This document shows, one piece after another, positions 4,378 through 28,515 of a DNA stretch of 28,988 nucleotides (positions are counted from its first letter, which is position 1; each line of letters begins with the position of its first letter). Below the pieces are notes generated by a model. It had not been told where the DNA came from, ran no database searches, and was given only the letters and a program-made list of their open reading frames with translations. Source of the DNA: a virus; IMG/VR virus record IMGVR_UViG_3300038309_000103, positions 1-28,988 of that record, one strand, 5' to 3'. A program made the position numbers and the translations under genes.

Positions 4378-7300
4378 CTACTCCAGTAGCCATTGCCATA
4401 CTCCTTTGAACTGGCCAACCAAGGGCGCCATGCCCTTGAGATTTTCCAGCGAGCGGCTCACGTCCACCTGGCCATTATCGATAGCCAGAATCTGCTGGGT
4501 CACGCTCAGCGCGGGTGTCACGGCTCCGGCATACCCGGCCAGTCCCTGGTCCCAGTCGTGCGCTTGCCACAAGCCATACAGCAAATCCCACTGGGCAAAT
4601 GCGCCAGTCTTTCGCGTCAACTCCACCACCAGCTCATCCCAGTCCTCATCGAACCGATCCTGCCCGGCCAGCAACCCACGAAGCCCGAGACTCAGCATAG
4701 CCAGGGGCATCATCAATGCCATCGCCAACATCGGGGTGCCGAGGGACATCATGGCCCCCATCGTGAGCGAATAGCCTTCGGCCTGCGCCTGCCTGACCTG
4801 CTGCTGAATCTGGCGACCCACGCCCATCAGAACGGTGTCGCCGAAGGTCCAAAGGAATTGCTTGAGGTGCCAGATCAGCTTCATGTACGGGTTGTTGCCC
4901 CAGTTCGTCGCCTGGAACTTATTGGGGTTCAACGTGCCCTCGTTCACAAACTGGGAAATCCCGGCGGACACGGTACGGGCCAACTCTGCATTCGGCCCTT
5001 CCATATCCGGTGCGAATGGGGGTCGGCCCAACCGATTCCATTGCAGTACCTGCTCCGGGGTCAAGCCAAGTTTGGCCAGTGATGCGTAGTCCCCATCCGC
5101 CGCCGCTTTGAGAACATAGTGCATCCCGATGGCCGTGCCGACAGTGCGGCTGAGCCGAGTGATGAACTGCTGGCCGTTGACAGTAAAGAACAGGTTGTTG
5201 GCCTTGCTCAGAATCCCGGACTGGTAGCCCTCGCCCATGGACTCACGCATCGCCTGCTCCGCACCGGTGGTCATGGCTGCCCCGATCGCGTGGGCAAAGT
5301 GCTTGGCCTCAGAGTAGTTACGCAGCGACTGCACGATGTCGTTGAATCCAAACCCAGCCCGGATCGCCGCGATAGCCGGCTCTGGGATTGACGCCACGCC
5401 AGAAAAGCCGAGAATCATCAGGTTGATGACGCCTGTGGCCCATTCCTGCGATTTCCGCGCCCATTTATTCACACCCAGGTTGTTATGACCCAATGCACCA
5501 GAGACGAGGTCCTTGACCTCGCGAGCGGCGGAGACGCCCTTCTCGCCTTCGATAGCGCGAAGGGCCTCCTTGTATTTGATATTCGGATCGTAGTAGAGCT
5601 GCTCCCCGGCCTGGACCGCCCGCTGAGCTGACGCCTGTAGTGAAGCCAGGTATTTGCCGTCCTTAGTGACATAGCCGCCGAACGTCGATTCCCACGCGGT
5701 GCGTTTGGCCAGCCCGGCAGCCAGGTGTTGCAGCATCCCGAAACCCTTGTCGAGCAGGAACCCGGCCTCGGCCAATTTCTCAGGGCCAATGGCCAAGATC
5801 AATGTGCGGGCTGCTTCATGGGTACCGACCGGCTTGCCCGGCCCCATCGGCTCATGCCCCAGTTCTTCAATGCCATACCCCTCGATGATCCGGTCGATTT
5901 GCTGGTTCAGTTCCTCGTCAGTCGCCCCAGGCAACACCTCTTTCGCCATCGCCATCAACTCACCGCGCTTAGCTTCAACCGCGGTGTGATCGAACACATA
6001 CGGGGTAAACCCGTTCATGAACTGTCCGGACGACCAGCCCTGACGCTGCGCATCTTTGAGCAGGGTATCGATCGTCTTGCGCAGGATGCGGGCACCCTCG
6101 GTATCCTTACCCTCGCGCATCTCCGTATACGCCTGGTCCACTGCCGCCTGCTGGCCCCGCCCCTTCTTGATCTGGTCAAACGCCCGCTGCAGGTGCGCCG
6201 CCCAGCTATTGGCCAGGGTGTTGCGCTTCTGCTCATAGGAGCCCTGCCCGACCCGGGTCTGGTTCGCGGATTGGAACAGCATCCCGGCCAATTCCGGGTT
6301 GGCACTGCGAATCCGACCGATGACCGACCGATACAATCCTGTAGGACGGAGCATACCCTTCAACGTCCGCTTGATCCGGGAGTCCACCCCAGATGGGGGT
6401 AGCGGCTTTTCATCCGGTGTGTAGTGCATGGTCACCGGCGACCCAACGTTATAGCGATGGGACAACGGCATTTCTCCACGCAAAATGCGTCGGGCGAATT
6501 CATCGAATTTCAAGTTCAGCTTGAACCGGGACAGCCGCCGCACCGCCTTGTCCGACTGGATCGCGTCCCACATCCGTTTCAGATTGTCGATCACGAACCG
6601 CAGCGCTTTGCCAAGTACACCCTTGGCATCCAGGTACTGGCTGCGCCGGTCGCCGGTGACATCTTTAGCAATGGCCGCGCTCATCTGGTCGGCGAACCAT
6701 TCCTTGAATCCGGTGAACCCCTCCTTGCCGTTATAGCTCCAACCGTGGTCCGCTTGATACAAATCAAACAGGGCGTTCCGCTCCGCTTCTGGCAGCAGGT
6801 GCCAGCTCTGGTCATAGAGCATGTGCCCCAGCTCGTGACCAAAAACCAACGACCATTCCGCCGGATTGGTGCCGGGCTGCAAAGCGTCCATAGAGATCAC
6901 CACGGTCGGCCCGAGGTTGATATAGCCGGGTCGAGCCGCCAGTTTGGCCAGCTCTTTCGGGGTGACCAAATGTCCAGCGTCACGGGCGATACGCTCCAAC
7001 TCCGCCAGATCACCGGTTTCCACCAGCGTGATGGGCGTCTGCAGGAAGCGCGTGCGCTGCTCCCCTTTCATGCCTTTGGAAACTTGCAGCAACAACCGCC
7101 GGGTGAACCCGGCCAGCGCCTGGAACGATTGGCGCTTGGCTGCTCTGCCTCGGACCTTGGTGCCGGTAAAGTTCTTTTTGGCTTTACGCGGGCGGGGCGC
7201 CTGTGGCTGCTCGGCTTGGACTTCCGTCAAACCCGCATCCAGTGGCAACTGCATCCCGCGCATGGGGGCACTCAACCGGACAAATCGGCTCTCGCTCTCC

Positions 7301-10300
7301 GCCAGCTGCTCCGCTTCAAAGGCCACCGCCGCCTCGACTTCAGACAACTCGGCGCCACGCTCATTGCGAAACACCGATTGGTCCATCGGGTCTGGGACAA
7401 AGCCATCGGCCTCCTCGTACAGCTCGCCCTCGATCTGCAGTGAACTTTCACCGCTACTGGCCATTTCGGCCATCTGCCGGTCGAAGCCCTCCTCGTCGAT
7501 GTCGTTACGCGAGTCGGCCTGACGGTCGGCCAACTCCGCTTGCCAGCCCCGCAAGCTAGTGGTCATTTCACCGGCGCCATCCTGTACAGCCGCGCTCAAT
7601 CGCTTAATCTTACCTAGCAAGCTTAAGCGCTGATCAAGCAGGGATTTCAGCGATCCAATTACACCATGCCCGAAATCAACCGCTATCAATCGAGCTACTT
7701 GATCACGAGTCGCCTTTTCATCATCGATCGAACGCCGATTAGCACTGACTTCCTCATCCCGTAACGACCGGAGTCTAGCCTCCGCCTCCGCTACCCGGTC
7801 ATGGCGGCGCTTTAGTATCCGCTCCTGGTCCCGTTGCGTGAGACGTGTGGGCCCAGACGCCATACGGTTCTGAAACTCCTCCAAGTGATCACGGGCCTCA
7901 CGTAATTCGATCCGGGCCTGTTGCAGCCGAGTCTCAATCCGTTTGGTACCTGAGCGACGCGCTTCCCGCTGCTCGTACCAAGTCGTGTTTACATTGGCCG
8001 TGATATCAGCCAACGCAGCGACTGTTTCCGCATCGCCCGCATCCTCTGCGACCGACCGCATTTGAGACAGTGTCAGCTCGATTAAATCTTCTAGCTGCTG
8101 TAGCTCCTCGCTGGCCTGGTCCCGCAGTGCTGCTGCCTCGGCAGTTTTGGATCGACGTGCCTTACCCTGCTCCCGCTGGGTCCGGGCCTCGCCCGCTGTC
8201 ACCGGTGCGCCATCCGGGTCAAACCAGACCACGATGTCGTCGGCCACTTGTGGTAGGCCGGCAGCTTTCATACGCTCCAGGTGGCTGGATTCCGGTCCCT
8301 GAGCCAAACGAGCAAGGTTGCTCTCCAGGTTGGTGATTGCTTCCGCTGCCGTGACTGGATGACGGTCCTTGGCGTAATTGGCAAGCGTCACCGCGTCCAC
8401 CAGCTTAAACACCGGTCCGGTCATACCGCTGTACTCGATCAGCAGCAGATTCTGCCCGCGGGCCTTGTTGGTGTAGGTGCGGGCGCGAGCCTCTCCCTCG
8501 GTAGTGAACTGGGTCAGCTCATTGGTAAACGTAGCCGCATTCAGCTCAGCCAATCGGGTCAGCAACCGGTCCCGATACTGGGTGTCGAAAGCCACCGGGT
8601 CGGCCATGAACTGGCCGCGAATCTGCTGATAGTCCTTCTCCGCCTCGCTCCATTGCTCCGGCGGTAGCGCCTCACTGCGAGCCTCCAAAAATTGCGGCAG
8701 TTTCAGGGTCGCCTGATTTACCGTGCGGTAAAACACCAAGTCGGACTGCTCCTGCGGATCACGCTCCTGCGCCGACGGGTAGGACTCGGCCTGCGGCGTC
8801 CCGCTATTGGAATAGGCGTTGCGCAGTTCGCTCTCAATCTCGGTGGCCACGTCCCCGATCAACAAATTCTCTGACAAAGCGTCGATGATCGCTTGCTCCG
8901 GATTGTTGCGGTGATTGGCCGCCAGCAACCGCAAGCCTTCCGCCAACTGCTCCTCGGCACGAGACTCTTGGTCCAGTGGGATTTCGAATTGCACCGTCAT
9001 GTAGCGGATCAAATGCCGTAGGCGCTGTTCGATGTCGGCAGGATTCGCGGCGTTGCGGATCGCATCGATATCCGACCTGAACTGCAGCAGGGCCACCGGA
9101 GCTGCCAAATGTTCCGTCTGGTGCGGCCAGTGCCGAGCCCAGTAGGCTGACTCCAGTGCACCGGTGTCCAGACCCAACCCTACCAACCCGGCCAGCCGTT
9201 GAATGACACTCAGGTCCCGCACCGACTGGGTGATGAACGCCCGACGAGCCGGGTTCAGGGTACGGGCCTCGGCCTCAGCTTCAGCTTCCGCTTCGGCGGC
9301 TTCCTCGGCGGTAGGCGCCCGGCGACTCTGTTTCTCGGCCTGAATCTGGCGGTCCAGTACCCGATTGCCTGTCTGCGGTGCCTGCGCCTCCAACCCGAAG
9401 GGGATTTCTTCCTCCAGCTGGGTCTGGCTGACGAAGTTGGTCCGCATCTTCTTGGCCCGATCATCCAGCTCCCGGAACAGACCGCGTACATCGTCCAGGG
9501 TCTTTTCGCCCTGCTCCGTCAAGTCGTTGACCTTGGCCCCCAGCACCTCGGCCAGCCCAATCAGGCTATTGTCGTCCATATCAGGCAGCCGATTGATCAG
9601 GCTGTTGACCGACCCACCCTCACCGACATAGCGGCGGACGGCCCGTGCCAATACCGGTTTGGGTAGATCACCGCGCAACTTGGCTTTGAGACGGGGCATC
9701 AGGTACTTGCGCCCACCCTCCATCAGCGCTTCGTTGCGTACCAGTTCTACCCCGGCGTCCTTGGCTGCCTTGCGCCATTCCGCATCAGATGCATTATCCA
9801 GTTCCGCCACTGCCCGATCAGCCAGCTCAAACGAGGTACCGTGCGGGGTCCGGGCGTACTTGGCCGCCAGCTTCTTGTTCCGGGACAGGGCTTTGCGGAT
9901 CGCTTCGCGGGTACGCTCCCGATCTACCGGCACCACAGTCTTCTGGAACCGGGCCGGGTCAATGCCGAGGCGGTTCAGGGTTTCGTTCAGCTCGGCCACG
10001 TCCAGTCGACCGGCCTGGAGGTCAGCCATCAGTTCATCTACCGGGCGCAGTTTGCCCTCGGCGTTGTACACCGATGCCGCCGGTGTGCCCGGCTCGGACG
10101 GTGCCCGGCGCTTGGCTTGTGCCTCGCGGGCCGGGCTCTGGCCCAGGTCGCCCAGCACAGCAGTATCCAGCGTGAATTCCGGCACCTGCGCATCGGCCTG
10201 CTCCCGGGCCAGTCCGTCCAGCGAACCACGCTCAGCCTGGCGCCGGGCCTGACGTTCAGCCAGTACATCCTCCGGTTTCCGGACACGGATGTCCGCATCC

Positions 10301-12159
10301 GGGTTGGCCTGCGCTACGGCAGCGACCGTGCGCTCCAGGTTATCCTCATCGGTGACCGCCGCTTCGAGCGTGTTGCCCTCGGCGTCCACCGCGTGCACCA
10401 CCTGCTGGGTCTGCTCCGGGTTCAGTTCAGATTTGGGGGTAAAACCCCTGGCACGAGCCAGTGCATCCCCAGTCAGGGGCGTCGCCGGGTCCAACAGCGG
10501 GTCATTTGGGTCGTTGGTCAGATAAAGCGAACCGTCTTCGCTCTCGCGCCGGAAGACTTCGCCATCAAACGCGGCTACAGCGGCCGCCTCATCTCCCCTG
10601 TTCGCCGGAGCCAGCCACACCGACCCTCGACGTTTTGCCCTTGCCTCTAAATCAGAAACAGGATCAGGATCGGTTGCCTCGGGGTTGAAGTTGTGTTCTT
10701 TGCGCTGACGCTCATTGACCTCACGCCGGAGGTTCCGACGCATACCGGCCAACCCTGACACGGTAGCCCCAGTCGTACCGATCGCCCCGCCGAAGATGCC
10801 GCCCCGGATACCCGCATCGAGTACCTGCGTCAAATCCACGTTATCCAGGTCAAGTTCGCGGTTCGGGTCCAGCTCCATGATGCTCAGCTCGTCCATGAAC
10901 TGCTGCAGCATTTCCGTGGTGCCTTCGGCCATGAAACCGACACCACCGGTTTGCATTGCCTTGCCGGCAATGTCGCGAAGCCGTACCACTTTCCCGGCCT
11001 CACGCAGGGTGTCAGCCAGCTCCTTCGCCGCGTCGGCACTGCCGCCCTTCATCACCCGCCGCAGGATAGTCTCCAGAGAGGCCAGTTCCAGGGCTGCTTT
11101 GGCCGAGCCCACCCCCCACGCGTGCAGCAGCGCACCATCAGTGTCTTCCAGCCCTTCGCCAAACTGCTGCTGACGGGTCTCACCAACCATCTGGGCCTCG
11201 ATGGAGGTGCCCATGCCCACGGTGCCTGCCCGCCCCAACAGCACTCCCTTGGCGCTGAATGCCCCCTTGGCTATCTGTCCAGACTTGGCCAGTGCAGCCG
11301 ATCCGGCGAGTTTGCGCATCGCCGCTTTGCCCACACCGGCAACCAACATAGACCCGGCGCCAGTAGCCAGCGCCGCACCAATGTCCACGGCCAGCTGAGG
11401 AGCGTTTTCGATGAGCGTTTCCAGCACATACAGACCGACGCCTTCATAGCCTCCGGCCAACGCTTCTTCATAGTTGGCAATCCGGGCCGGATTCAGGGCC
11501 GCTTCGGTCATATTCCGCAGCATTCCGTCCTCGCCCCATTTCTCCAGGGCGTCGATACCCGTGGTCTTACCCAGCACCTCGGCAAAGCCGTACAGAGAGC
11601 TTTGCAAATTATCCACGCCCCGGCCAAACGCCGCTTCTGCCGCATTGTTACGGTTCATTCCCCGGGTGCGGGTATGAAGCGGTTGAGCGAGGAGGTTTTC
11701 AAAGCGGTTGCGCAGAAAATCCAGGTTCTCCCGGTCAGACTGCTCGACGTACCGGTCCCATTCCGGGCGCACGCGATTGCCAGTGGCCTGGTCGACGACG
11801 CCCAGGTGCATGAAGTTCATGGACTCGCGGTTCGGCGCAGCCAAGCCTCGACGGATCATATCCTGGCCAACGTTACCCTGGTCGTCAACGACATCCACCA
11901 GTTCCCGACCATGGCGGCCAGTAGCCCCGGTGCTCTGTACCTGTGCGCCACTGTCCAGGGCTTGTTGCAGCGCCTGCCGGGCCGGCTCGGCCCCGGGCAT
12001 ATCCACCGGCACTTCGCGCCCGGCCCGCTCCGGGGTATCCCCGTGCCGCAGACGTTGATTACCGTTTGGCCCGTACACCCCATCGCCGTCATATGCCGAC
12101 CCCTCCCGTTTCTCGACGAGGCGTTGCCAGCGGGTCAGGCGATCTTGGTCAATGGGCAT
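4378..12159 (-). CDS. Giant polyvalent virion (ejection-type) protein with SNase-like and HExxH metalloprotease-like domains
   Basis: A 2593-aa protein starting at ATG 12159 with AAAGGA 8 nt upstream. Residues 1-110 carry staphylococcal-nuclease-like signatures: DGDG (24-27), RLRHGDTPE (36-44), GRHGRE (81-86) and MIRRGLA (101-107). Residues about 230-330 are hydrophobic and Ala/Gly-rich. Residues about 600-1700 are charged and partly coiled coil. HELGH at 1775-1779 followed by KEWFAD (Glu1820) is a zinc-metallopeptidase signature. Near residue 2423 NPYMKLIWHLKQF, followed by a hydrophobic segment (about 2470-2495), resembles the LPD38-type region of polyvalent proteins. It lies after two internal-virion candidates, as T7 gp16 and other ejected proteins do. 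The inferred job is entry into the cell with the DNA, perhaps processing itself or host targets. It is preceded by its own terminator. Confidence 0.8.
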   Translation of the reverse strand: MPIDQDRLTRWQRLVEKREGSAYDGDGVYGPNGNQRLRHGDTPERAGREVPVDMPGAEPARQALQQALDSGAQVQSTGATGRHGRELVDVVDDQGNVGQDMIRRGLAAPNRESMNFMHLGVVDQATGNRVRPEWDRYVEQSDRENLDFLRNRFENLLAQPLHTRTRGMNRNNAAEAAFGRGVDNLQSSLYGFAEVLGKTTGIDALEKWGEDGMLRNMTEAALNPARIANYEEALAGGYEGVGLYVLETLIENAPQLAVDIGAALATGAGSMLVAGVGKAAMRKLAGSAALAKSGQIAKGAFSAKGVLLGRAGTVGMGTSIEAQMVGETRQQQFGEGLEDTDGALLHAWGVGSAKAALELASLETILRRVMKGGSADAAKELADTLREAGKVVRLRDIAGKAMQTGGVGFMAEGTTEMLQQFMDELSIMELDPNRELDLDNVDLTQVLDAGIRGGIFGGAIGTTGATVSGLAGMRRNLRREVNERQRKEHNFNPEATDPDPVSDLEARAKRRGSVWLAPANRGDEAAAVAAFDGEVFRRESEDGSLYLTNDPNDPLLDPATPLTGDALARARGFTPKSELNPEQTQQVVHAVDAEGNTLEAAVTDEDNLERTVAAVAQANPDADIRVRKPEDVLAERQARRQAERGSLDGLAREQADAQVPEFTLDTAVLGDLGQSPAREAQAKRRAPSEPGTPAASVYNAEGKLRPVDELMADLQAGRLDVAELNETLNRLGIDPARFQKTVVPVDRERTREAIRKALSRNKKLAAKYARTPHGTSFELADRAVAELDNASDAEWRKAAKDAGVELVRNEALMEGGRKYLMPRLKAKLRGDLPKPVLARAVRRYVGEGGSVNSLINRLPDMDDNSLIGLAEVLGAKVNDLTEQGEKTLDDVRGLFRELDDRAKKMRTNFVSQTQLEEEIPFGLEAQAPQTGNRVLDRQIQAEKQSRRAPTAEEAAEAEAEAEAEARTLNPARRAFITQSVRDLSVIQRLAGLVGLGLDTGALESAYWARHWPHQTEHLAAPVALLQFRSDIDAIRNAANPADIEQRLRHLIRYMTVQFEIPLDQESRAEEQLAEGLRLLAANHRNNPEQAIIDALSENLLIGDVATEIESELRNAYSNSGTPQAESYPSAQERDPQEQSDLVFYRTVNQATLKLPQFLEARSEALPPEQWSEAEKDYQQIRGQFMADPVAFDTQYRDRLLTRLAELNAATFTNELTQFTTEGEARARTYTNKARGQNLLLIEYSGMTGPVFKLVDAVTLANYAKDRHPVTAAEAITNLESNLARLAQGPESSHLERMKAAGLPQVADDIVVWFDPDGAPVTAGEARTQREQGKARRSKTAEAAALRDQASEELQQLEDLIELTLSQMRSVAEDAGDAETVAALADITANVNTTWYEQREARRSGTKRIETRLQQARIELREARDHLEEFQNRMASGPTRLTQRDQERILKRRHDRVAEAEARLRSLRDEEVSANRRSIDDEKATRDQVARLIAVDFGHGVIGSLKSLLDQRLSLLGKIKRLSAAVQDGAGEMTTSLRGWQAELADRQADSRNDIDEEGFDRQMAEMASSGESSLQIEGELYEEADGFVPDPMDQSVFRNERGAELSEVEAAVAFEAEQLAESESRFVRLSAPMRGMQLPLDAGLTEVQAEQPQAPRPRKAKKNFTGTKVRGRAAKRQSFQALAGFTRRLLLQVSKGMKGEQRTRFLQTPITLVETGDLAELERIARDAGHLVTPKELAKLAARPGYINLGPTVVISMDALQPGTNPAEWSLVFGHELGHMLYDQSWHLLPEAERNALFDLYQADHGWSYNGKEGFTGFKEWFADQMSAAIAKDVTGDRRSQYLDAKGVLGKALRFVIDNLKRMWDAIQSDKAVRRLSRFKLNLKFDEFARRILRGEMPLSHRYNVGSPVTMHYTPDEKPLPPSGVDSRIKRTLKGMLRPTGLYRSVIGRIRSANPELAGMLFQSANQTRVGQGSYEQKRNTLANSWAAHLQRAFDQIKKGRGQQAAVDQAYTEMREGKDTEGARILRKTIDTLLKDAQRQGWSSGQFMNGFTPYVFDHTAVEAKRGELMAMAKEVLPGATDEELNQQIDRIIEGYGIEELGHEPMGPGKPVGTHEAARTLILAIGPEKLAEAGFLLDKGFGMLQHLAAGLAKRTAWESTFGGYVTKDGKYLASLQASAQRAVQAGEQLYYDPNIKYKEALRAIEGEKGVSAAREVKDLVSGALGHNNLGVNKWARKSQEWATGVINLMILGFSGVASIPEPAIAAIRAGFGFNDIVQSLRNYSEAKHFAHAIGAAMTTGAEQAMRESMGEGYQSGILSKANNLFFTVNGQQFITRLSRTVGTAIGMHYVLKAAADGDYASLAKLGLTPEQVLQWNRLGRPPFAPDMEGPNAELARTVSAGISQFVNEGTLNPNKFQATNWGNNPYMKLIWHLKQFLWTFGDTVLMGVGRQIQQQVRQAQAEGYSLTMGAMMSLGTPMLAMALMMPLAMLSLGLRGLLAGQDRFDEDWDELVVELTRKTGAFAQWDLLYGLWQAHDWDQGLAGYAGAVTPALSVTQQILAIDNGQVDVSRSLENLKGMAPLVGQFKGVWQWLLE

Positions 12160-19262: not shown

Positions 19263-21421
19263 TATGCGTTACCTCTCTTCTCATTGCCCTGAGTGCGTTG
19301 TTGCTGCGCCAAATAGCGCTGGGTTTCCGTCTGCTTCTGGACCGTGGCCAATTGAACAGCGCTCTGGACCGACTGCTTCTGGGAATTGAACCGGTGAGTC
19401 ATCTGAGCCAGCTCGATGCGGGTCATCAGTTCCTCACGCTTGGATTGAATCTTCGCTTCCAGCTCCTGCAGGCGCAGCTGGTTCTCCGGCGAATCCATAC
19501 CGCCAGCCTCCTGCGTAGCCTTGGCCATGTTCAGGTACATCCGGCTCTCGATCTCGCCGGCCTCAGCCATGAGCTTCTTCAACTCGCCCTGGAGCGTCTG
19601 CATCTGCAGCTCCTGCTGCATTTGCATCAACTGCAGCTCCTGTTCGGTCGGCTCGGCCATACCCGCCAGCTCCTTGAGTTGTTCGGCGATCTCATCGCGA
19701 TCCGCCAACCCGCTATACTGGACAATGATGTGGTCCGGGATCATGATGCCGTTGCTGCGCAGTTCCAGGGCCTTGGCGAACTGAATATCGTCGTAAGTGT
19801 CCCGGCTCGGCTGCACCGAGACGGTAGCGTCATACTTGCCCTTGGTAATGTCGTTGTGGATCGCGCCGGTGATCGTCGGGGCGTTAATTTCGAGGGTCTC
19901 GGTACGCTCCTCACCCATCTTCGGATGAGTCTTGGTGATGTTCACCACCCGATGCTCTGTGTAGTACTGCTGGAACAGCTCCAGCAGCTTGCGGCCGAGA
20001 ATGCGACGGGTCCGTGCAAGGTTGGTGAACGGTACTTGCAACTGGACATTGGCCCGGTTCTGTTTACCTTCCAGCGCTACGCCACTGATCTCCGGTGACG
20101 CAATGCCGAGCACACCCTCCATCCCGGAAATCTCCCGCAGGAACTGCCGCGACTTGTTGGAAATCAGCTCCAGCCCGGTCGGAATTGGGTTCGGTTTCAC
20201 TTTCTCGGGAGGCCTTGAGCCGCGGGCATGCACCAGTACCAGCCCGGTCTCGGCCCCGCGCTCGGCCAGCTCGTCTTCGTCCATATTGACCAGCGTGCCT
20301 TCCTCCACTGTCCAGCCAGAGTTGGCGGTCGTGTTGATTACATGCAGCTCCTGGCTGGTGGTCTTATTCAAGTGGTCCTGGGAACCGATCAGGTTCTTGA
20401 CCATGCCCATCGGTTTACCGCGCAGGAAGTACGGGAAATACGGCACGATGGTGAAACTGTCATAGGGCGACCAATCGTCGTGCAGTACAACGTGGTCGCA
20501 GGTCACAGTCCAACGGATACGAGACGAAGGTTTACGGTGAATCATCAGGCCAAACTGCATCCCGAAGGCTTCTCGCTGTTCAGCCGACCAGCTCATCGGC
20601 ACCGGGCTCATATCCCCAGTGCGCGGGTCGATGTAGTAGTAGGCGTTCACCAGCCGTCGATACTGGCGCGAGATCACGCGCACATTCTTGATCTGCTTCT
20701 CGCCGCCGAGCCCGGCGTTATACTCCCATTGCGTCCAGTCCGGTTCACCAAAGGTGTTGCGGTTGAACTCAAAGCTGTCGTAGCTGTAATAACTGCCGGC
20801 GGCCACCAACCCTTCGACCTGTTCACGCTTGTCCTTCCCGAACGTGTTCTCGATCTCATCCAGCGTCTGCCAATAGGTCCGGGTCACCCGGTTCCAGGTC
20901 TTGGGGTCGTACTCTTTAGCATCGACGTCCAGGACGATCTCGGTCGGGTCCACGGACGAAATCCGGACTTCGCCCTGCATGTGCTCGCTAAAATCCATGC
21001 GCACATCCAGGTAACCTCGATCCGAAACAAACCCGTCGATGACCATGTCCCACTCAGCCGAGTCGAAGTCGTTGTCATCCAGCGTGTGCATGGCCAGTTT
21101 GGTCAGTATCTGGCTCAAGTCATGGGCGCCCCGGTGCTTGGCTTTGTACCCGATCCGGGCCTGCCGTTGGCTGTACTCACCCAGGGCCGCGTTGATCGTC
21201 GACAGAATCAGGTTGATGGTCAGCGCCGGGCGACCTTCTTCCTCCAGCTTCTTGAGCACCGCAGCTTCCCACTGCTCGCCCATGTAGTAGTTCTGGTATT
21301 TCTCGGCCTCTTTGACATAGTCAATGTGCCCTGCGTCCCGGTCGCGCAGGTAGCACTGCCACTGGCGCTCAGCCAATAGACGGTCGGTCTCCGGTACAGC
21401 TTTGAACGCCGTATCAGCCAT
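19262..21421 (-). CDS. Portal protein, P22 gp1-like
   Basis: A 719-aa protein starting at ATG 21421, overlapping the end of the dUTPase gene by 8 bp. It begins with a helical segment ending NYYMGEQWEAAVLKKLEEEG, then RPALTINLILSTINAALGEY and a stem/wing body containing SSVDPTEIVLDVDAKEYD, FTIVPYFPYFLRGKPMGMVK and NLIGSQDHLNKTTSQELH, which is characteristic of P22-like portals. A late NGIMIPDHIIVQYSGLADRD precedes a Gln/Glu-rich C-terminal coiled coil (about 590-719), comparable to the P22 barrel. The dodecameric portal is the DNA gateway and docks terminase. Its length is close to P22 gp1 (725 aa). The pairing with an N4-type capsid is noteworthy. Confidence 0.88.
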   Translation of the reverse strand: MADTAFKAVPETDRLLAERQWQCYLRDRDAGHIDYVKEAEKYQNYYMGEQWEAAVLKKLEEEGRPALTINLILSTINAALGEYSQRQARIGYKAKHRGAHDLSQILTKLAMHTLDDNDFDSAEWDMVIDGFVSDRGYLDVRMDFSEHMQGEVRISSVDPTEIVLDVDAKEYDPKTWNRVTRTYWQTLDEIENTFGKDKREQVEGLVAAGSYYSYDSFEFNRNTFGEPDWTQWEYNAGLGGEKQIKNVRVISRQYRRLVNAYYYIDPRTGDMSPVPMSWSAEQREAFGMQFGLMIHRKPSSRIRWTVTCDHVVLHDDWSPYDSFTIVPYFPYFLRGKPMGMVKNLIGSQDHLNKTTSQELHVINTTANSGWTVEEGTLVNMDEDELAERGAETGLVLVHARGSRPPEKVKPNPIPTGLELISNKSRQFLREISGMEGVLGIASPEISGVALEGKQNRANVQLQVPFTNLARTRRILGRKLLELFQQYYTEHRVVNITKTHPKMGEERTETLEINAPTITGAIHNDITKGKYDATVSVQPSRDTYDDIQFAKALELRSNGIMIPDHIIVQYSGLADRDEIAEQLKELAGMAEPTEQELQLMQMQQELQMQTLQGELKKLMAEAGEIESRMYLNMAKATQEAGGMDSPENQLRLQELEAKIQSKREELMTRIELAQMTHRFNSQKQSVQSAVQLATVQKQTETQRYLAQQQRTQGNEKRGNA

Positions 21422-21881
21422 CGCTCATTCCCCCTGTAGAGCCAAAGCCGCCGCTGCCCCGGTCGGTTTGATCGGTAAAGTCGGTCAATTCTACCACATC
21501 AGGCGTGGCTACGGGCACAATAACCAGCTGAGCGATCTTGTCGCCCCGGCGGATCGTGCGGGTTTCATCGCTCTCGTTGCGCAGGAGCACCTGGAGTTCG
21601 CCTCGGTAGTCCCAATCGATCAATCCAGCCTTGCGGTCAATCTCGCGCTTGGCCGCCCAGCCACTGCGAGGCCAGATTTGCCCCGCGTACCCGGTCGGGA
21701 TGGCAACACGCCAACCGGTCGGAATCAATTTCTGCTGCCCCGGCTCAATTTCGCAGTTAATCGCGGACGGTAGATCATATCCCGCCGAGCCTTCGGTCTG
21801 GCGCAGTGGCAGGGGTAAGGGGTCTGTGCCCATTGCCTCCTGCAGCTGCTCCTGTTCCCACGCCGTTCGCGCAAACCCCAT
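21414..21881 (-). CDS. dut: dUTP diphosphatase (dUTPase)
   Basis: A 155-aa trimeric-type dUTPase that hydrolyses dUTP to dUMP and pyrophosphate. All five conserved motifs are present in order: SAGYDL (32-37), PRSG (71-74), GLIDWDYRGE (86-95, catalytic Asp in ID), RGDKIAQLV (112-120) and RGSGGFGSTG (141-150). The start chosen is ATG 21881 because it shares a base with the o-spanin stop (TGATG), implying translational coupling, and because the resulting length matches the family. The same frame is, however, open upstream into the i-spanin-like gene. Placement of a nucleotide-pool enzyme between lysis and portal genes is unusual. It overlaps the portal start. Confidence 0.93.
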   Translation of the reverse strand: MGFARTAWEQEQLQEAMGTDPLPLPLRQTEGSAGYDLPSAINCEIEPGQQKLIPTGWRVAIPTGYAGQIWPRSGWAAKREIDRKAGLIDWDYRGELQVLLRNESDETRTIRRGDKIAQLVIVPVATPDVVELTDFTDQTDRGSGGFGSTGGMSDG

Positions 21882-22187
21882 CACGGGCACTGCGTCTCCA
21901 CGGCCTCGAAGTACATTAGCAATCGCGCCACGTCGTCTGGTCCCAGCTTCACGCCCTCGGAAGTAGCAGATGGCAGCACTGGCGTAGGGGGAGGGCAGTT
22001 CGGGTTCGGCGGCTTGCTGATCCCTGTCAGCAGACATCCCGCCAAACCGCTCGTTCCAAGCAGCAATAGGGTCACTTTTAATACGGTCGATCCGGGCACG
22101 CTTCTCCTCCTTATCCCGCAAAGCGATCAGGTTCTGAATGCCTTCAAGTAAAAGTAGCGCCACCTTGGCCCAGACCGCCGCGCTCAT
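21414..22187 (-). CDS. i-spanin-like N-terminus whose frame continues without a stop into dUTPase
   Basis: ATG 22187 (overlapping the holin-like stop, TAATG) starts MSAAVWAKVALLLLEGIQNL followed by a charged helix and IKSDPIAAWNERFGG (residues 1-50). An apolar N-terminus, charged helix and W..RFG ending are typical of small phage i-spanin/Rz-like proteins, which usually stop soon after FGG. Here no stop occurs: translation would run through about 52 residues of o-spanin shadow (51-102) into a complete dUTPase, giving 257 aa. Either a genuine fusion exists, or a stop codon has been lost and dUTPase is mainly made from its own ATG at 21881. The spanin call is by context and general pattern. Confidence 0.5.
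   Translation of the reverse strand: MSAAVWAKVALLLLEGIQNLIALRDKEEKRARIDRIKSDPIAAWNERFGGMSADRDQQAAEPELPSPYASAAICYFRGREAGTRRRGAIANVLRGRGDAVPVMGFARTAWEQEQLQEAMGTDPLPLPLRQTEGSAGYDLPSAINCEIEPGQQKLIPTGWRVAIPTGYAGQIWPRSGWAAKREIDRKAGLIDWDYRGELQVLLRNESDETRTIRRGDKIAQLVIVPVATPDVVELTDFTDQTDRGSGGFGSTGGMSDG
21881..22099 (-). CDS. o-spanin-like (Rz1-type) lipoprotein, embedded in another frame
   Basis: A 72-aa product from GTG 22099, which has a strong AAGGAGGAG Shine-Dalgarno sequence 4-5 nt upstream. The N-terminus is a lipoprotein signal, VLKVTLLLLGTSGLAGC, with lipobox LAGC; the mature part starts at the Cys and is Pro-rich (SKPPNPNCPPPTPVLPS), as in Rz1 proteins. Outer-membrane o-spanins pair with an inner-membrane i-spanin to fuse membranes at the last step of lysis. 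It lies entirely inside the i-spanin-like/dUTPase frame in a different phase, an arrangement known for Rz/Rz1. Its stop is coupled to the dUTPase start. Confidence 0.75.
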   Translation of the reverse strand: MPGSTVLKVTLLLLGTSGLAGCLLTGISKPPNPNCPPPTPVLPSATSEGVKLGPDDVARLLMYFEAVETQCP

Positions 22188-22399
22188 TACTTCGGGCCTT
22201 TCGGGTCGGCGTTTTTGACCGCCAGCGCCAGGGGCTTGATGATCTTCTCGAAGATCAGGCCAGGCCATTTATCGTCCTTGGGGGTTGGGGTCAGGGCTAC
22301 GATGGCACTGGCCACCGGGTGCAGGGCCAACAGGACGGCTACGGTCTTGCCGAACCAGCCCAGGGTGTTCCACAGTTCAATGATCTGAGTAATGTCCAT
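22187..22399 (-). CDS. Small membrane protein, holin candidate
   Basis: A 70-aa protein from ATG 22399, with GAGG 9 nt upstream. It has one clear apolar segment (GKTVAVLLALHPVASAIVAL, about residues 17-36), then TPTPKDD, a weaker amphipathic helix and a basic C-terminus. One membrane helix with a charged tail, next to spanin-like genes, makes a holin or lysis regulator the best guess. No endolysin gene is visible beside it. Stop and next start overlap (TAATG). Confidence 0.6.
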   Translation of the reverse strand: MDITQIIELWNTLGWFGKTVAVLLALHPVASAIVALTPTPKDDKWPGLIFEKIIKPLALAVKNADPKGPK

Positions 22400-23004: not shown

Positions 23005-25827
23005 CTACGCCGCTTGCCAGCCGAGGCGGCTGGACCGTGCGGACAGTGGTAGTTTGTCTTTCCACGACTTTTTCGGCTTACTCTTCGGCTTGCGCGGGAC
23101 CGCGAACTGATCCAGCAGCTTGCCGATGTAAGCCATCGCATCCACACCGTCGTCGTGCGCACCGGCGGGGAACCGCAGCATTTCGTTGATCAGGCTCTGG
23201 GTCAAATCACAGCCAGAACGGAACAGCACCCGGCCCTGCTGCATTCGACCCTTGATCGACTGGGCGCGGGCCACCTTGTCGTTTTTGCCAGGTTTCAGAG
23301 GCTCATAGCTGAAACCTGTGCACTGACGCTCCCGCGCCCGTTTCATAAGCAGTGGGCCGATGGACAACTCGATCTGGCCCCGTTCAATACCCACCATAGC
23401 CGGTTTCCAGGTTTCATAGGTGTCCAGCATCTTCTCCACGAGGGTCAGGGAGTCCCAACGCCCTCGCTGAATGTCAACCACATAGATGTTGTCCTGCCCA
23501 TCCACCCCGACGGTGATACCCACCGACCAGTCATTCATTTCCTTTTGCCCGACCGCCAAGTCCCAGGCCGTATAGAAGATCATGTCCTCCCAGTCGGGGA
23601 GGTCACGCTGCTGATAGAACTTAAACATCCCCTTGGTGAAAAATGCCCCCTCATCTGGTACCGGGTTCTGCTGGTACAAGGCCGACCAGTCACGGGGGCC
23701 GACCGCCCGCTTGATCCGCAGCAGCGCGTCAAGGGGGTATCGTTCCGGGTGCAGGGGCTCGCCGGCCTTGCGATACAGCTCGTCGGTCTCGGCGATGGCC
23801 GGGTAGTTCACCACCCGCCACTCGTCACCCTCGTCGTTGGCCATGGCCGTCATCAGGCGCCCCGCCAGATCGTCGTCGTGCCACCGGGTCAGGATCAGCA
23901 GCACACCGCCACCGGGCGCCAGACGGGTGTAGGCTGTCGAGGTGTACCAGTCCCAGACCGAGTCGCGAGTGGTAACCGATTCCGCTTCCTCACGGTTCTT
24001 GACCGGGTCATCGATGACTAGGCAGTTGTGGACGAGAACCTGGTTCGCAAAGAAATTCTCGGTTCCGGTTTGGAGGTCTACGACACTGTAGCCAGGGCCG
24101 TAAAGACCGTCCTCCATGTCTTTTGCACAGACGCCAAGCTGCTGTGATACCAGGCATGACACTCCCTGCACAGGCCGATCAAATTCTTCGGCACATGATT
24201 CGTGGCGTCGTGATCTATGTGATGGACTTCGGTGGCTCCGAACTTCATGCACCGTCTGCACAACATGTCTCGCCGGAGTATTTCCGATCTCACCTTGAGC
24301 CATTCGCCCTGATACGCCTTGTACCCTGGGACCGGCCGAGATTTCCGACTCTCCCAGTAGCACTCTTTTGAGCAGAACTTCTGCCGCCTGGCCTTGGTTA
24401 TCCCTCTGCCGCACGTCCGACACTCGCCCTTGATCTGCGCTGTAACCTGTCGGTGCTCCTGCCGGTACTGGTCGTAACAAGCTCTGCCGCAAAACGCCTG
24501 CGTATCCGGCCCGTACCGTTTTACTGACTTCTCGTAATCTGCCCTGGGCCTCTCGAATAACTTGTCGCAGTTTGCGCAGCACAAGGACACTTTCGGAACT
24601 TCTATCGTTTTTGCGTAGCAGTCCGTACACGTCTTGGCATGGCTCGCCTTTCTGCCGCCGCATTCCGGGCAAATCTTCTTTATATGGAGCGGCTTGCCTC
24701 CCCGGGCGCAGAGGGCCGAACAGTACGCTCTCTGTTCCCTCTCTGGCACGGCTCGTCGCCTTCCCGCTCGACGGTATTCTTTTAGTGATCGTGCAAACCC
24801 CATCCTGCACTCGTGGCAATACAACCAAACCATCTTCTGGTTCGAGTTCGTCCGCGTAAATATAACCTCGTGTTTCGGTCCAGACCCGGTGATCCGGGGT
24901 ACATTCCAGATCACCGACAGTGACCAGCTCTGGTTTACGGGATGCGGCAACGGCCAGTACCGGAGTCCAGCAAACTGCATTTGTTTCGTGGTCATACCCT
25001 AAAACCTCGTCGCCAATTTTTACCTCATTAGCGGCGATTATACCACGGCGGGTGTGGATAGTCGTGTTCGAACTAACACAATGAGCCCCAGTGCCGGTTA
25101 TAGGTCCGCCAACACCAGCCGCACGGTAGCCACCGCCGGAGGTGGTCAGCCATTCCTCGGCGCTCTGGCTGTCCGGGTCCAGACCGAAGTTCTCGAACAC
25201 CGTCTGATAGCTTTTTTCCCGAACCTGCGCCCGAACCTTACGGCTGAACTTCAACGCCAGGGCGCCGGAGTACGAACAGCTGATAAATTCGTGATGCGGG
25301 TACTTCCCGAGGTGCCACGCAGGGAAAGAAACAGAAGCCAGCTGGCTTTTACCGTGGCGAGGTGGGCAAAATATCGCCAATCGAGGACTTTGACCTGCCG
25401 CGACGGCCTCACTGAACCATTCCAGGTGCTCGCAGATGTCTTTGTGGACCCAGCCCGCCTTGTAATCAGGCATTGTGCGCTGTACAAAGGGCAGTAACCG
25501 CTTCCGAGCCAGCAAAATCCGGGCCAATTCCCGTCGCGCCGCTTTTTGAGGGTCAAACGCCTCGGCTTCTTCGGCTTCTTCAGCCTCGCGCTTGATCCTT
25601 TGGCGCTCCAGCTCGGCCATTTCCGCCCGCAGCGCGTCACGGGCCTGCTGCTGCTCGTGTTTGCGGCGATCTTCCTCGCGAACCTCGTCGTTCTGCTTGG
25701 CAATCTCGTCGGCTTTATCCTGTTGCGCTTGTCGACAGAAGATGCACACACCTTTTTCAGCAAACAGCGTGCGCGGATGCTCCTTTTCGCACATCTTGCA
25801 GACGGCTTTGAGGACATCACGAGCCAT
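23005..25827 (-). CDS. terL: Terminase large subunit precursor, interrupted by an intein
   Basis: A 940-aa precursor; removing the intein (residues 250-601) leaves a 588-aa terminase. ATG 25827 follows GGGGAGG and overlaps terS by 11 bp. Residues 10-31 form a zinc ribbon (CKMC ... CIFC), then a charged coiled coil to about 90. ATPase: Walker A CPPRHGKS (154-161), Walker B LVIDDP (603-608, just after the intein) and the coupling motif TRWHDDD (647-653). RNase H-like nuclease: WDLA Asp756, IERG Glu815 and AHDDGVDAM with acidic residues 892-896. This is the packaging motor and headful/cos nuclease. Walker A and Walker B lie on different exteins, so packaging depends on protein splicing. The catalytic residues are all present after the predicted ligation of His249 to Cys602. 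Confidence 0.93.
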   Translation of the reverse strand: MARDVLKAVCKMCEKEHPRTLFAEKGVCIFCRQAQQDKADEIAKQNDEVREEDRRKHEQQQARDALRAEMAELERQRIKREAEEAEEAEAFDPQKAARRELARILLARKRLLPFVQRTMPDYKAGWVHKDICEHLEWFSEAVAAGQSPRLAIFCPPRHGKSQLASVSFPAWHLGKYPHHEFISCSYSGALALKFSRKVRAQVREKSYQTVFENFGLDPDSQSAEEWLTTSGGGYRAAGVGGPITGTGAHCVSSNTTIHTRRGIIAANEVKIGDEVLGYDHETNAVCWTPVLAVAASRKPELVTVGDLECTPDHRVWTETRGYIYADELEPEDGLVVLPRVQDGVCTITKRIPSSGKATSRAREGTESVLFGPLRPGRQAAPYKEDLPGMRRQKGEPCQDVYGLLRKNDRSSESVLVLRKLRQVIREAQGRLREVSKTVRAGYAGVLRQSLLRPVPAGAPTGYSADQGRVSDVRQRDNQGQAAEVLLKRVLLGESEISAGPRVQGVSGRMAQGEIGNTPARHVVQTVHEVRSHRSPSHRSRRHESCAEEFDRPVQGVSCLVSQQLGVCAKDMEDGLYGPGYSVVDLQTGTENFFANQVLVHNCLVIDDPVKNREEAESVTTRDSVWDWYTSTAYTRLAPGGGVLLILTRWHDDDLAGRLMTAMANDEGDEWRVVNYPAIAETDELYRKAGEPLHPERYPLDALLRIKRAVGPRDWSALYQQNPVPDEGAFFTKGMFKFYQQRDLPDWEDMIFYTAWDLAVGQKEMNDWSVGITVGVDGQDNIYVVDIQRGRWDSLTLVEKMLDTYETWKPAMVGIERGQIELSIGPLLMKRARERQCTGFSYEPLKPGKNDKVARAQSIKGRMQQGRVLFRSGCDLTQSLINEMLRFPAGAHDDGVDAMAYIGKLLDQFAVPRKPKSKPKKSWKDKLPLSARSSRLGWQAA
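24078..24995 (-). CDS. HNH homing endonuclease with zinc fingers, nested out of frame inside the intein
   Basis: A 305-codon ORF, +1 to the terminase frame. Residues 1-54 overlap the Hint N-terminal half and look unconserved. From about residue 55 there are four Cys-pair zinc-finger-like units: C60/C63-C92/C96, C109/C112-C123/C126, C140/C143-C169/C173 and C192/C195-C208/C212. They are followed by a canonical HNH nuclease: C246-x2-C249, VHHIDHD (257-263), Asn271, LCRECH (275-280) and His284. All catalytic and zinc ligands are intact, so this frame is under selection. ATG 24995 has GAGG 9 nt upstream; ATG 24833 (residue 55) is an alternative start that would fit the conserved domain exactly. 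It presumably cleaves intein-less terL alleles, driving intein homing. The stop lies 53 bp before the intein end. Confidence 0.9.
   Translation of the reverse strand: MTTKQMQFAGLRYWPLPHPVNQSWSLSVIWNVPRITGSGPKHEVIFTRTNSNQKMVWLYCHECRMGFARSLKEYRRAGRRRAVPEREQRAYCSALCARGGKPLHIKKICPECGGRKASHAKTCTDCYAKTIEVPKVSLCCANCDKLFERPRADYEKSVKRYGPDTQAFCGRACYDQYRQEHRQVTAQIKGECRTCGRGITKARRQKFCSKECYWESRKSRPVPGYKAYQGEWLKVRSEILRRDMLCRRCMKFGATEVHHIDHDATNHVPKNLIGLCRECHAWYHSSLASVQKTWRTVFTALATVS
25037..25045 (-). promoter_or_regulatory. Extended -10 promoter-like element inside the intein, upstream of the HNH ORF
   Basis: The minus strand reads TGGTATAAT, a perfect TATAAT with an extended -10 TGn. A weak -35 (ACGACT, 3 of 6 matches) lies 17 bp further upstream. 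Transcription would begin near 25030, about 35 nt before the HNH ATG at 24995. It falls inside the block A coding region (codons for Arg-Gly-Ile-Ile). It could allow the nested endonuclease to be expressed apart from terL. Only sequence similarity supports it. Confidence 0.4.
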
Positions 25828-26696: not shown

Positions 26697-26852
26697 ATGA
26701 GCAAAGAGGAAAGCAACATGCCTATCACACGCATCATCAATGACCTTGAGCAACTGCCAATGGAGGGAGGCAACTCCGCATCCGATCAAGCCATCCAAGC
26801 CTTTCTCGATTATCTGTACGAGCGGCTGGATAACAAGGAGAAAGCAGCATGA
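26697..26852 (+). CDS. Small acidic protein of unknown function
   Basis: A 51-aa protein from ATG 26697 (MSKEESNMPITRIINDLEQL). The chosen start has a G-run 8 nt upstream and a context (GGGTCTACATCATG) that resembles the start of the 524-aa gene (GGGTACATCATG). ATG 26718 with GAGG 8 nt upstream is a reasonable alternative. The product is helical and acidic with no known motif. Its last codons overlap the next start (ATGA), so the two are coupled. First gene of the rightward operon. Confidence 0.6.
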   Translation: MSKEESNMPITRIINDLEQLPMEGGNSASDQAIQAFLDYLYERLDNKEKAA

Positions 26853-26929
26853 AACCACGTTACGCATGGACAGTCGTCGCAATGACCGCCCTGTTCTGGG
26901 GACCGGTCATCTACTGGGTACTCAACTAG
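26849..26929 (+). CDS. 26-residue single-pass membrane micropeptide
   Basis: A small ORF, MKPRYAWTVVAMTALFWGPV followed by IYWVLN. ATG 26849 overlaps the previous stop (ATGA) and has AAGGAG 8 nt upstream; the stop TAG overlaps the AGGAGG ribosome site of the next gene. Two positive charges, then about 20 apolar residues rich in Trp, indicate one inner-membrane helix with the N-terminus in the cytoplasm. The tight coupling on both sides supports translation. Function unknown. Confidence 0.65.
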   Translation: MKPRYAWTVVAMTALFWGPVIYWVLN

Positions 26930-26940
26930 GAGGGTACATC

Positions 26941-28515
26941 ATGGCAAGAGAAGTAGCAGTGAAGCGGACCGGTGTAGCAGCACCGGCCCATGTTCAGAGC
27001 AATCAAACCACCAGCAACGAGGTAATCACTATGAACAACGCAACTATAGCACAAGTCGTAGCAGCATCCAGCGCCCAGTCACTCCAGTGGTTCAAGCCGC
27101 TGGCCACGGGCCAGATGACCCCACGGGAGTACATCGAATGGCTGTCCAAGGAGACAGCGGTCTCGCAGGAGGGTCGCGCCTACTCAGCGGTGTACGCCGC
27201 CAACGGTGCAGCGCCCTACGCAGTGTCAGAGATCACCAAGGCGCTGTGGGCTGCGCAAAAGGTCGGTGCAATGGGCTACGCACAAGCGGTTGGTGCTGCC
27301 CGGCGCTTCCAGCGCATGGTCGAGGCCATCACTCACAGCCTCTCCGGCCAGATCGGCTACGCGGTGCCCGAGGTGTCCGCAGCGCTGGTAAAGATTCGTG
27401 TCGACCACGAAGGCGGTGGCGAGAGTGGTCACGACTTCAAAGCGCAGGTTGAGGAGGCTATCGAGCACTACCGGCAGCAGCTGGTCGCCGGATCGATCAC
27501 CCTCAAGGACTTCAATCTGGTCAAGCGTGAACTGAAGTCTCAGCTCAAGGAGCACGAGATCAAGGCGCTGATGGGCCAGGAGGAGCTGAAGGACACCGAC
27601 GCTGGTAACCCCAGTGAAGACGAAGGCAGCGTGCAAGTGGCGCTGCACGAGCCCACCGATCTCTGGCAGTACGAGCCCAAAGATGTGGCTGGGGCCGAGG
27701 GCCACATGATCCGGGCGCTGCACACCTTCCGGGGTGTGGACCTGCCGCTGGATGACCCGGACTGGGGTTATCTGGTCGAGCGGGCCGCCGAGTCGCTGGC
27801 CACAGCCATCGAGTACGCCGAGCCGGACCAGAAGGAAGCCACCCGCGCCAAGGCGGAGTATCGGATGGCCGTCATCGAGGGTGGCGTCATGGCCAACCCG
27901 TGGAAGGCCCGCTGGGCGATCAACTGGACTGCACGGCGCATCTGGCGGGATCGCGAGGTGCTGCGCGGCACGCTGGCCCGGTTCGAGGAGTCCATCGCCA
28001 AGATCGAGGAGACCATGGCGCGGGAGGAGAAGTACAACCTGCCTGCCCGGATGACCCGGCTGATGAGCGAGCGGCCCATCGAGTCCGATGAGGAGCGCAG
28101 CTACTACCTGGTCTGGGAGGTGGTGCCCGAGCACAAGGTGCAGCCGGACTCGCTGTACTACACCGACCGAGCACGCAATGTCTGTACGCTGACCCAGGGC
28201 GAGTACCGCATCAAGGTGTACGAGAACTTGATGGAGTGGGCCAGCACCATCCTCCGGCGCATGGACCGGCTGTACGCCAAGGTGGTGGCGGTCGAAAACG
28301 AGCTGGCCCCAGTCTGGACGCTGATGGCTCGCGCTCCAATGCCCGCCCAGGCTCCGGTGTACTGGAACCAGCAAGGGTTCTACCTCACCGAGGCCGAAGC
28401 CCGCACCGCGCTCGCTGTGGAGCAGGCTGCTTTCCTTGAGCAGAAGCGCGAAGCGCTGGTCGAGGGGGCACACACCCACCTCGAGGCGCTGCTGGCTGCG
28501 CAAGGTTTGATCTAA
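26941..28515 (+). CDS. 524-aa protein of unknown function
   Basis: ATG 26941 (MAREVAVKRTGVAAP) has AGGAGG 7 nt upstream and is preferred to an in-frame ATG at 26740 that overlaps another gene; a further internal start at 27031 (GAGG 8 nt upstream) is possible. The sequence is mostly helical and charged, with essentially no Cys. An Ala-rich segment (about 70-125, SAVYAANGAAPYAVSEITKA) is followed by an acidic linker (about 210-235) and an Arg/Glu/Trp-rich second half (KARWAINWTARRIWRDREVL). No enzymatic motif or transmembrane helix is recognised. It could be an early protein or an abundant structural/DNA-associated protein. It is followed by a UUCG hairpin. Confidence 0.8.
   Translation: MAREVAVKRTGVAAPAHVQSNQTTSNEVITMNNATIAQVVAASSAQSLQWFKPLATGQMTPREYIEWLSKETAVSQEGRAYSAVYAANGAAPYAVSEITKALWAAQKVGAMGYAQAVGAARRFQRMVEAITHSLSGQIGYAVPEVSAALVKIRVDHEGGGESGHDFKAQVEEAIEHYRQQLVAGSITLKDFNLVKRELKSQLKEHEIKALMGQEELKDTDAGNPSEDEGSVQVALHEPTDLWQYEPKDVAGAEGHMIRALHTFRGVDLPLDDPDWGYLVERAAESLATAIEYAEPDQKEATRAKAEYRMAVIEGGVMANPWKARWAINWTARRIWRDREVLRGTLARFEESIAKIEETMAREEKYNLPARMTRLMSERPIESDEERSYYLVWEVVPEHKVQPDSLYYTDRARNVCTLTQGEYRIKVYENLMEWASTILRRMDRLYAKVVAVENELAPVWTLMARAPMPAQAPVYWNQQGFYLTEAEARTALAVEQAAFLEQKREALVEGAHTHLEALLAAQGLI

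Follow-up and report, generated by a model that had tools for sequence, protein, structure and literature searches.

In textbook inteins, the splicing and nuclease activities reside in one polypeptide. The large terminase subunit gene (terL) in IMG/VR virus record IMGVR_UViG_3300038309_000103 raises the question of whether the two can instead be separate proteins encoded by the same bases, as is inferred here. The window, by which we mean the whole stretch of 28,988 nucleotides that was analysed, very likely harbors a mobile terL intein with its homing endonuclease encoded by an overlapping gene in another frame, in place of a fused domain. Splicing, internal initiation, separate expression, cleavage and homing are all inferred in this reading, as there are no expression, splicing or cleavage data. 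The host gene and its insert are arranged as follows.

25827..23005, minus strand: terL precursor ORF, 940 aa, large terminase subunit
25827..25081 (249 aa) and 24024..23008 (339 aa), minus strand: terL exteins, 588 aa in sum
25080..24025, minus strand: intein, 352 aa in the terL frame; boundaries from the sequence and from the empty site in a relative, L011
24836..25080, minus strand: N-terminal splicing domain (blocks A, N2 and B); terL-frame dN/dS 0.28 (0.12-0.57) against a second relative, L002
24025..24092, minus strand: C-terminal splicing blocks F and G (YSVVDLQTGTENFFANQVLVHN); partial Intein_splicing/TIGR01443 matches; near-identical in L002

The terL frame is matched by Terminase_6N (6.7e-11), Terminase_6C (3.3e-7) and TIGR01630 (3.2e-14), and the host gene in the window is unbroken, with one 940-aa ORF spanning the intein. 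The insertion point, H|C, is found immediately ahead of the Walker-B hydrophobic-DDP motif of terL. The insert begins CVSSNTT..., contains TPDH in block B and ends ...FFANQVLVHN|C, its signature residues being Cys1, the block-B TxxH, the C-terminal His-Asn and Cys+1; C1, T61, H64 and N352 are unchanged across all 17 inteins aligned. Hint_2 and Intein_splicing are only weak matches in this frame, and both the Hint and the Pfam HNH matches of the window fall under curated cut-offs, so that support comes from PHROG, structure and homologues. Both splicing halves are modelled in a Hint fold with an AF2 pLDDT of 94-96, and the best Foldseek matches are inteins. With signature residues, Hint fold, in-frame insertion in a conserved motif and an empty allele all present, the insert is very likely an intein, protein splicing itself being inferred. 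The rival possibility, that the insert is an RNA intron that splices itself and harbors an HNH gene, is prompted by the frequency of HNH genes in phage group I introns (background in PMC11855218), but it is all but excluded by a terL frame that is open throughout and by the intein motifs and Hint fold; no Rfam match was found up to E=1. The spliced terminase of 588 aa that the initial annotation had put forward is correct as arithmetic (249+339), and the splicing remains an inference.

The second reading of the insert is in the +1 frame of terL, where the following features are found.

24078..24995, minus strand: HNH ORF in its longest form, 305 aa, +1 frame of terL, from ATG 24995
24078..24833, minus strand: HNH gene in its shorter form, 251 aa, +1 frame, from ATG 24833; stop TAG at 24080..24078
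24834..24995, minus strand: possible N-terminal extension of the HNH, from ATG 24995; overlaps the N-splicing domain; Shine-Dalgarno (SD)-like CGAGGTT 7 nt upstream
24708..24818, minus strand: zinc unit 1 (CHEC...CSALC); ligands kept in L002
24618..24671, minus strand: zinc unit 2 (CPECG...CTDC), zinc-ribbon-like; kept in nearly all homologues long enough to cover the region
24477..24578, minus strand: zinc unit 3 (CANC...FCGRAC); four Cys invariant in 27 sequences
24360..24422, minus strand: zinc unit 4 (CRTC...FCSKEC); four Cys invariant in 27 sequences
24144..24260, minus strand: HNH catalytic core (CRRC...VHHIDHD...N...LCRECHAWYH); core residues invariant in 27 sequences

PHROG 1271 (HNH endonuclease) matches this frame at E=2.8e-17, and Pfam HNH does so at 5.5e-4, slightly short of the cut-off. 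The invariant core consists of H204, H205, N217, H226 and H230 (251-aa numbering) in 27/27 homologues. The AF2 model has a pLDDT of 87.7 overall and around 97 in the core. Foldseek of this model against the PDB gave nothing at E<=0.001; its HNH part resembles McrA-type HNH enzymes (probability 0.99-1.0, E around 0.03-0.06), and the remainder matches only unspecific zinc-finger proteins. With zinc ligands and catalytic core present, the hidden ORF is very likely an HNH homing endonuclease, whose cleavage of the empty allele is inferred. The claims made from sequence alone of a full HNH gene in the +1 frame at 24078-24995, and of four zinc units with all ligands intact, thus held, the latter both in the sequence and in L002, with the correction that the start may be ATG 24995 or 24833. 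The zinc-finger/HNH part begins at around 24833 and ends in block F, and so occupies the space left between blocks A/B and F/G of the intein. The HEN domains of inteins are known to occupy one conserved site (PMC6801210), and the hidden HNH fits the linker between the splicing halves there.

The terL-frame linker is of a different character. No endonuclease-domain match to it was found in the window by domain search, and its AF2 pLDDT is 31-48; together with a dN/dS of around 1, this upholds the earlier claim that the intein has no endonuclease in the terL frame. Yet the terL frame crosses 24078..24995 on the minus strand without any stop. Resampling of codons with the HNH protein fixed gave 9.9 expected terL-frame stops against 0 seen, with 0/4000 resamples open, and in the converse resampling the HNH frame remains open in 0.8%. 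The linker, of around 240 aa, is likely to be unconstrained except for the avoidance of stops.

The relative L002 has both frames open in the same layout, with 69% identity to the window in terL and 62% in the HNH, and no ligand has been lost from its HNH core or from its four Cys4 units. The comparison of dN/dS in both frames, which the initial annotation had suggested, was made with a script of our own, modelled on overlapping-gene methods, in which each substitution is scored for what it changes in either frame. Over the 246 codons of the overlap, the window and L002 give a dN/dS of 0.11 (0.09-0.24) in the HNH frame and 1.13 (0.83-1.59) in the terL frame, whereas in the exteins the pattern is reversed (terL 0.07, +1 frame 0.93). 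The HNH is therefore a conserved protein under strong purifying selection in the overlap, where the terL frame is near neutral. Only two sequences of the window clade bear the intein, and saturation affects some of the rates. In the clade of the isolated cyanophage S-EIV1, values are 0.08-0.19 for the HNH, where estimable, and 0.42-1.16 for terL; four further groups, including a family with its HNH in the +2 frame, give uncorrected ratios of 0.09-0.61 and 0.45-1.03, respectively. In the S-EIV1 clade, the +1-frame constraint extends back into the N-splicing domain, and some residues there are therefore doubly coded.

These rates bear on the view that the HNH is a decaying relic, non-functional and with an open frame merely left over. 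In favor of this, the HNH is broken in some relatives: a stop interrupts the HNH frame of L025, whose terL frame is intact, and in L026/L027 a deletion takes out much of the HNH with terL still open. Against it, the HNH frame is under strong purifying selection in five other groups as well as in the comparison of the window with L002, and all ligands are retained, so that the relic reading is very unlikely. Homologues with stops or lost ligands, named at the outset as grounds for refutation, are consequently not supported as an objection, even with the broken HNHs of L025-L027.

A second objection, likewise named at the outset as a ground for refutation, is that a sequencing or assembly error, in the form of two compensating indels, has displaced the HNH of an ordinary intein from the terL frame. 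In its favor, the sequence of the window is that of a metagenomic contig, and a classical intein would carry its HNH in frame. The error reading is nevertheless all but excluded, since an artefact would not yield a terL frame open over 250 codons against around 10 expected stops, and since the same layout occurs in independent contigs and in five deposited phage genomes. A tblastn search of phage genomes with the HNH found S-EIV1, in which the HNH is +1 out of frame within terL as annotated and the insertion site is again Walker B. The deposited genomes with the layout in +1 are S-EIV1 and Gordonia phage Clown (gp5), and those with it in +2 are Tetrasphaera phage TJE1 (terL), Rhodobacteraceae phage LS06-2018-MD07 and Acinetobacter phage Highwayman. 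The HNH lies unannotated inside the terL CDS in the deposited genomes S-EIV1, Clown, TJE1, OP947163 and Highwayman.

Profile searches of viral and genome contigs for HNH relatives, seeded with hidden HNHs, show how far the layout extends. The window-type HNH is found at 88 distinct loci, around 54 of them hidden in terL inteins (49 by automatic criteria and five checked by eye), with 30 free-standing and 4 chance overlaps. Among these 88 window-type loci there is no in-frame fusion of intein and HNH, a count that is biased by seeds that were themselves hidden. L033, L111, L120 and L122 were dropped as chance overlaps, being 'hidden' calls without intein blocks. In L099, a window-type HNH is found at a different terL site. 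A second family (HNH_3), unrelated to the first, has its core first and a zinc unit after, unlike the HNH of the window, and is hidden in 71/78 loci, mostly in the +2 frame. Its inteins occupy the nuclease motif of terL ('HN|C-DA-RY') and, in the case of L005, Walker B. Five of its loci (L165, L169 and L174-L176) have the HNH hidden in +1, not +2, which suggests independent nestings or a frame switch. Outer frames are identified by Pfam as terminase in 10/10 tested, with Intein_splicing over the cut-off in 6 and weaker or absent in the rest, and the hidden frames of the tested relatives match HNH or HNH_3. An unannotated free-standing HNH_3 relative was also observed between the terL and portal genes of Brevundimonas phage Poludnitsa (ON529862; L205:2354-2929), and could possibly represent a free form of the nuclease.

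The layout, seen in over a hundred other phage sequences, is thus very likely a recurring kind and not a one-off. A bolder reading, which has to be taken as one joint claim, is that inteins with overlapping-frame endonucleases are a widespread and ancient class in phage terminases, that they arose at least twice (with unrelated HNH families, different frames and different terL sites), that they travel as a unit, and that they are unannotated since gene callers report only the terL frame; we lean towards this reading, though by no great margin. The earlier proposal of a distinct class of mobile intein is supported as far as a recurring class is concerned, and is qualified by a report from 2025 of an out-of-frame HNH without an intein (PMC11855218).

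Evidence for mobility is found in both families. L011 has the same terminase without the Walker-B intein, and its 3' flank is 88-93% identical to that of L002 over 60-300 nt. This empty site and the broken HNHs of L025-L027 are likely to represent the stages expected of a homing cycle, homing itself being inferred. In the HNH_3 family, pairs occur in which the HNHs are 70-75% identical and the exteins only around 30%, and the splicing domain follows the HNH (r=0.80) more closely than the extein does (0.59); extein comparisons with L054 are probably distorted by a second intein in its terL. Such similarity of HNH and splicing domain between distant terminases implies that the two appear to move together, and they likely form one co-moving mobile unit, again with homing inferred. 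L011 also contains another intein, at Walker A (L011:2989-5805; PPRHGK|QIAD...THN|SQLA), with an in-frame LAGLIDADG-like motif (LLAGLVDTDG), and therefore one terminase can host either type. L026/L027 likewise have a second, LAGLIDADG-type intein at Walker A.

How the hidden HNH may be expressed is less clear. In the proposed scheme, reading of the terL frame would give a precursor in which ordinary splicing halves are joined by an unconstrained linker, and splicing would release this linker to leave the mature terminase. Reading of the +1 frame would give a separate zinc-finger HNH endonuclease, its translation most likely beginning within the intein. This enzyme would cleave terL alleles without the intein at the insertion site, and the intein would then be copied in during repair. 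Among 15 divergent families, 7 have an internal ATG with a good Shine-Dalgarno match, where codon resampling predicts 3.4 (P=0.013); this weak signal loses significance once GTG/TTG count as starts (P=0.13), and conserved intein motifs contribute part of it. A ribosome-binding site conserved at an internal position was rejected as a candidate, as the initial count (10 seen against 1.9 expected) was confounded by stop codons and a fair test yields no more than a suggestive result. ATG 24995 and the SD-like CGAGGTT of the window are shared with L002, and the SD-like sequence is supplied by a conserved intein motif, GDEV..YD. Because the first 54 codons (24834..24995) overlap the splicing domain and show no +1 constraint (dN/dS 0.96 in the sole available pair), the start may be ATG 24995 or ATG 24833. 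Free-standing relatives of the HNH start beside the first zinc finger.

Alternatively, a programmed +1 frameshift could fuse the HNH to the terL N-extein and N-intein, with no start of its own. The lack of a strong start signal conserved across all families speaks for this, as does the reach of +1 constraint into the N-splicing domain in the S-EIV1 clade. Against it, the two unrelated HNH families are in different frames (+1 and +2) and the HNH_3 family uses both, and therefore a single slip direction cannot serve all. The position at which free-standing relatives begin also argues against a frameshift, and a fusion would tie HNH output to a disrupted terminase. The frameshift is accordingly considered unlikely, and internal initiation is preferred. 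The decoupling of splicing from the endonuclease, as originally suggested, is supported by layout and selection; separate translation, splicing and cutting of the empty site are inferred.

Several known systems resemble this arrangement in part. In the ShiLan element (PMC11855218, Genes 2025), an out-of-frame HNH is found in a phage DNA methylase insertion, with a similar case in Pacc40; Applejack is another such case. The ShiLan and terL elements share a zinc-finger HNH in another frame of a stop-free insertion, a disjunct distribution and an undetermined translation mechanism. However, the ShiLan insertion is without detectable splicing domains and was reported to be neither intein nor intron, whereas the terL HNH is flanked by full intein blocks in the host frame. 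Canonical HEN-containing (large) inteins carry the endonuclease at a conserved point flanked by the N and C splicing blocks (PMC6801210), but in frame and released within the intein, in contrast to the unconstrained linker and separate overlapping HEN gene of the window. Also known are 'fractured genes', in which a free-standing homing endonuclease lies between the two parts of a split intein. These similarly uncouple the nuclease from the splicing polypeptide, but their host gene is divided into two pieces that are translated separately, whereas terL is one continuous ORF overlapping the nuclease gene. The TerL of cyanophage Mic1 likewise has inteins in its ATPase and nuclease domains, although an in-frame endonuclease domain is reported in one of them, with no mention of other frames (PMC7156551). 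Phage HNH homing endonucleases (PHROG 1271, PF01844, PF13392) share the HNH core and zinc units but are normally free-standing or intron-encoded. The literature searched contains no description of an intein with its endonuclease in another frame, but it did not cover preprint 10.1101/2025.01.02.630785, whose subject is inteins of 'non-canonical architecture' in actinobacteriophages and whose data set could include Gordonia phage Clown. The out-of-frame HNH insertion is thus already known from ShiLan, and its nesting in an intein is unreported as far as the searched literature goes.

If the nuclease is made separately, its dose, timing and decay could be adjusted without regard to splicing, and, as L025 to L027 suggest, the host gene need not suffer when the nuclease is broken. 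These loci also form a large natural collection of overlapping genes, each pairing a conserved frame with one that merely has to lack stops, which serves the study of overlap origin and internal initiation. A nuclease may be concealed in many long 'HEN-less' phage inteins and could be uncovered by translating their linkers in the two remaining frames. In the terL frame, the HNH core reads as a motif, S[PS][HY]R[PS], with an invariant Arg and the consensus SPHRPQ (around 24218-24201 in the window), and this motif in terL-frame inteins could flag hidden HNHs in protein databases.

Three further ORFs of the window deserve mention. On the minus strand, a 72-aa lipobox ORF (21881-22099; LLGTSGLAGC..., Rz1-like), without PHROG match, lies in another frame inside a 284-aa dUTPase-containing ORF (21414-22268), and a 2593-aa ORF (4378-12159), without Pfam match, is found in a virion gene cluster. 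On the opposite, plus strand, a 591-aa ORF (26740-28515), without Pfam or PHROG match, adjoins the packaging genes.
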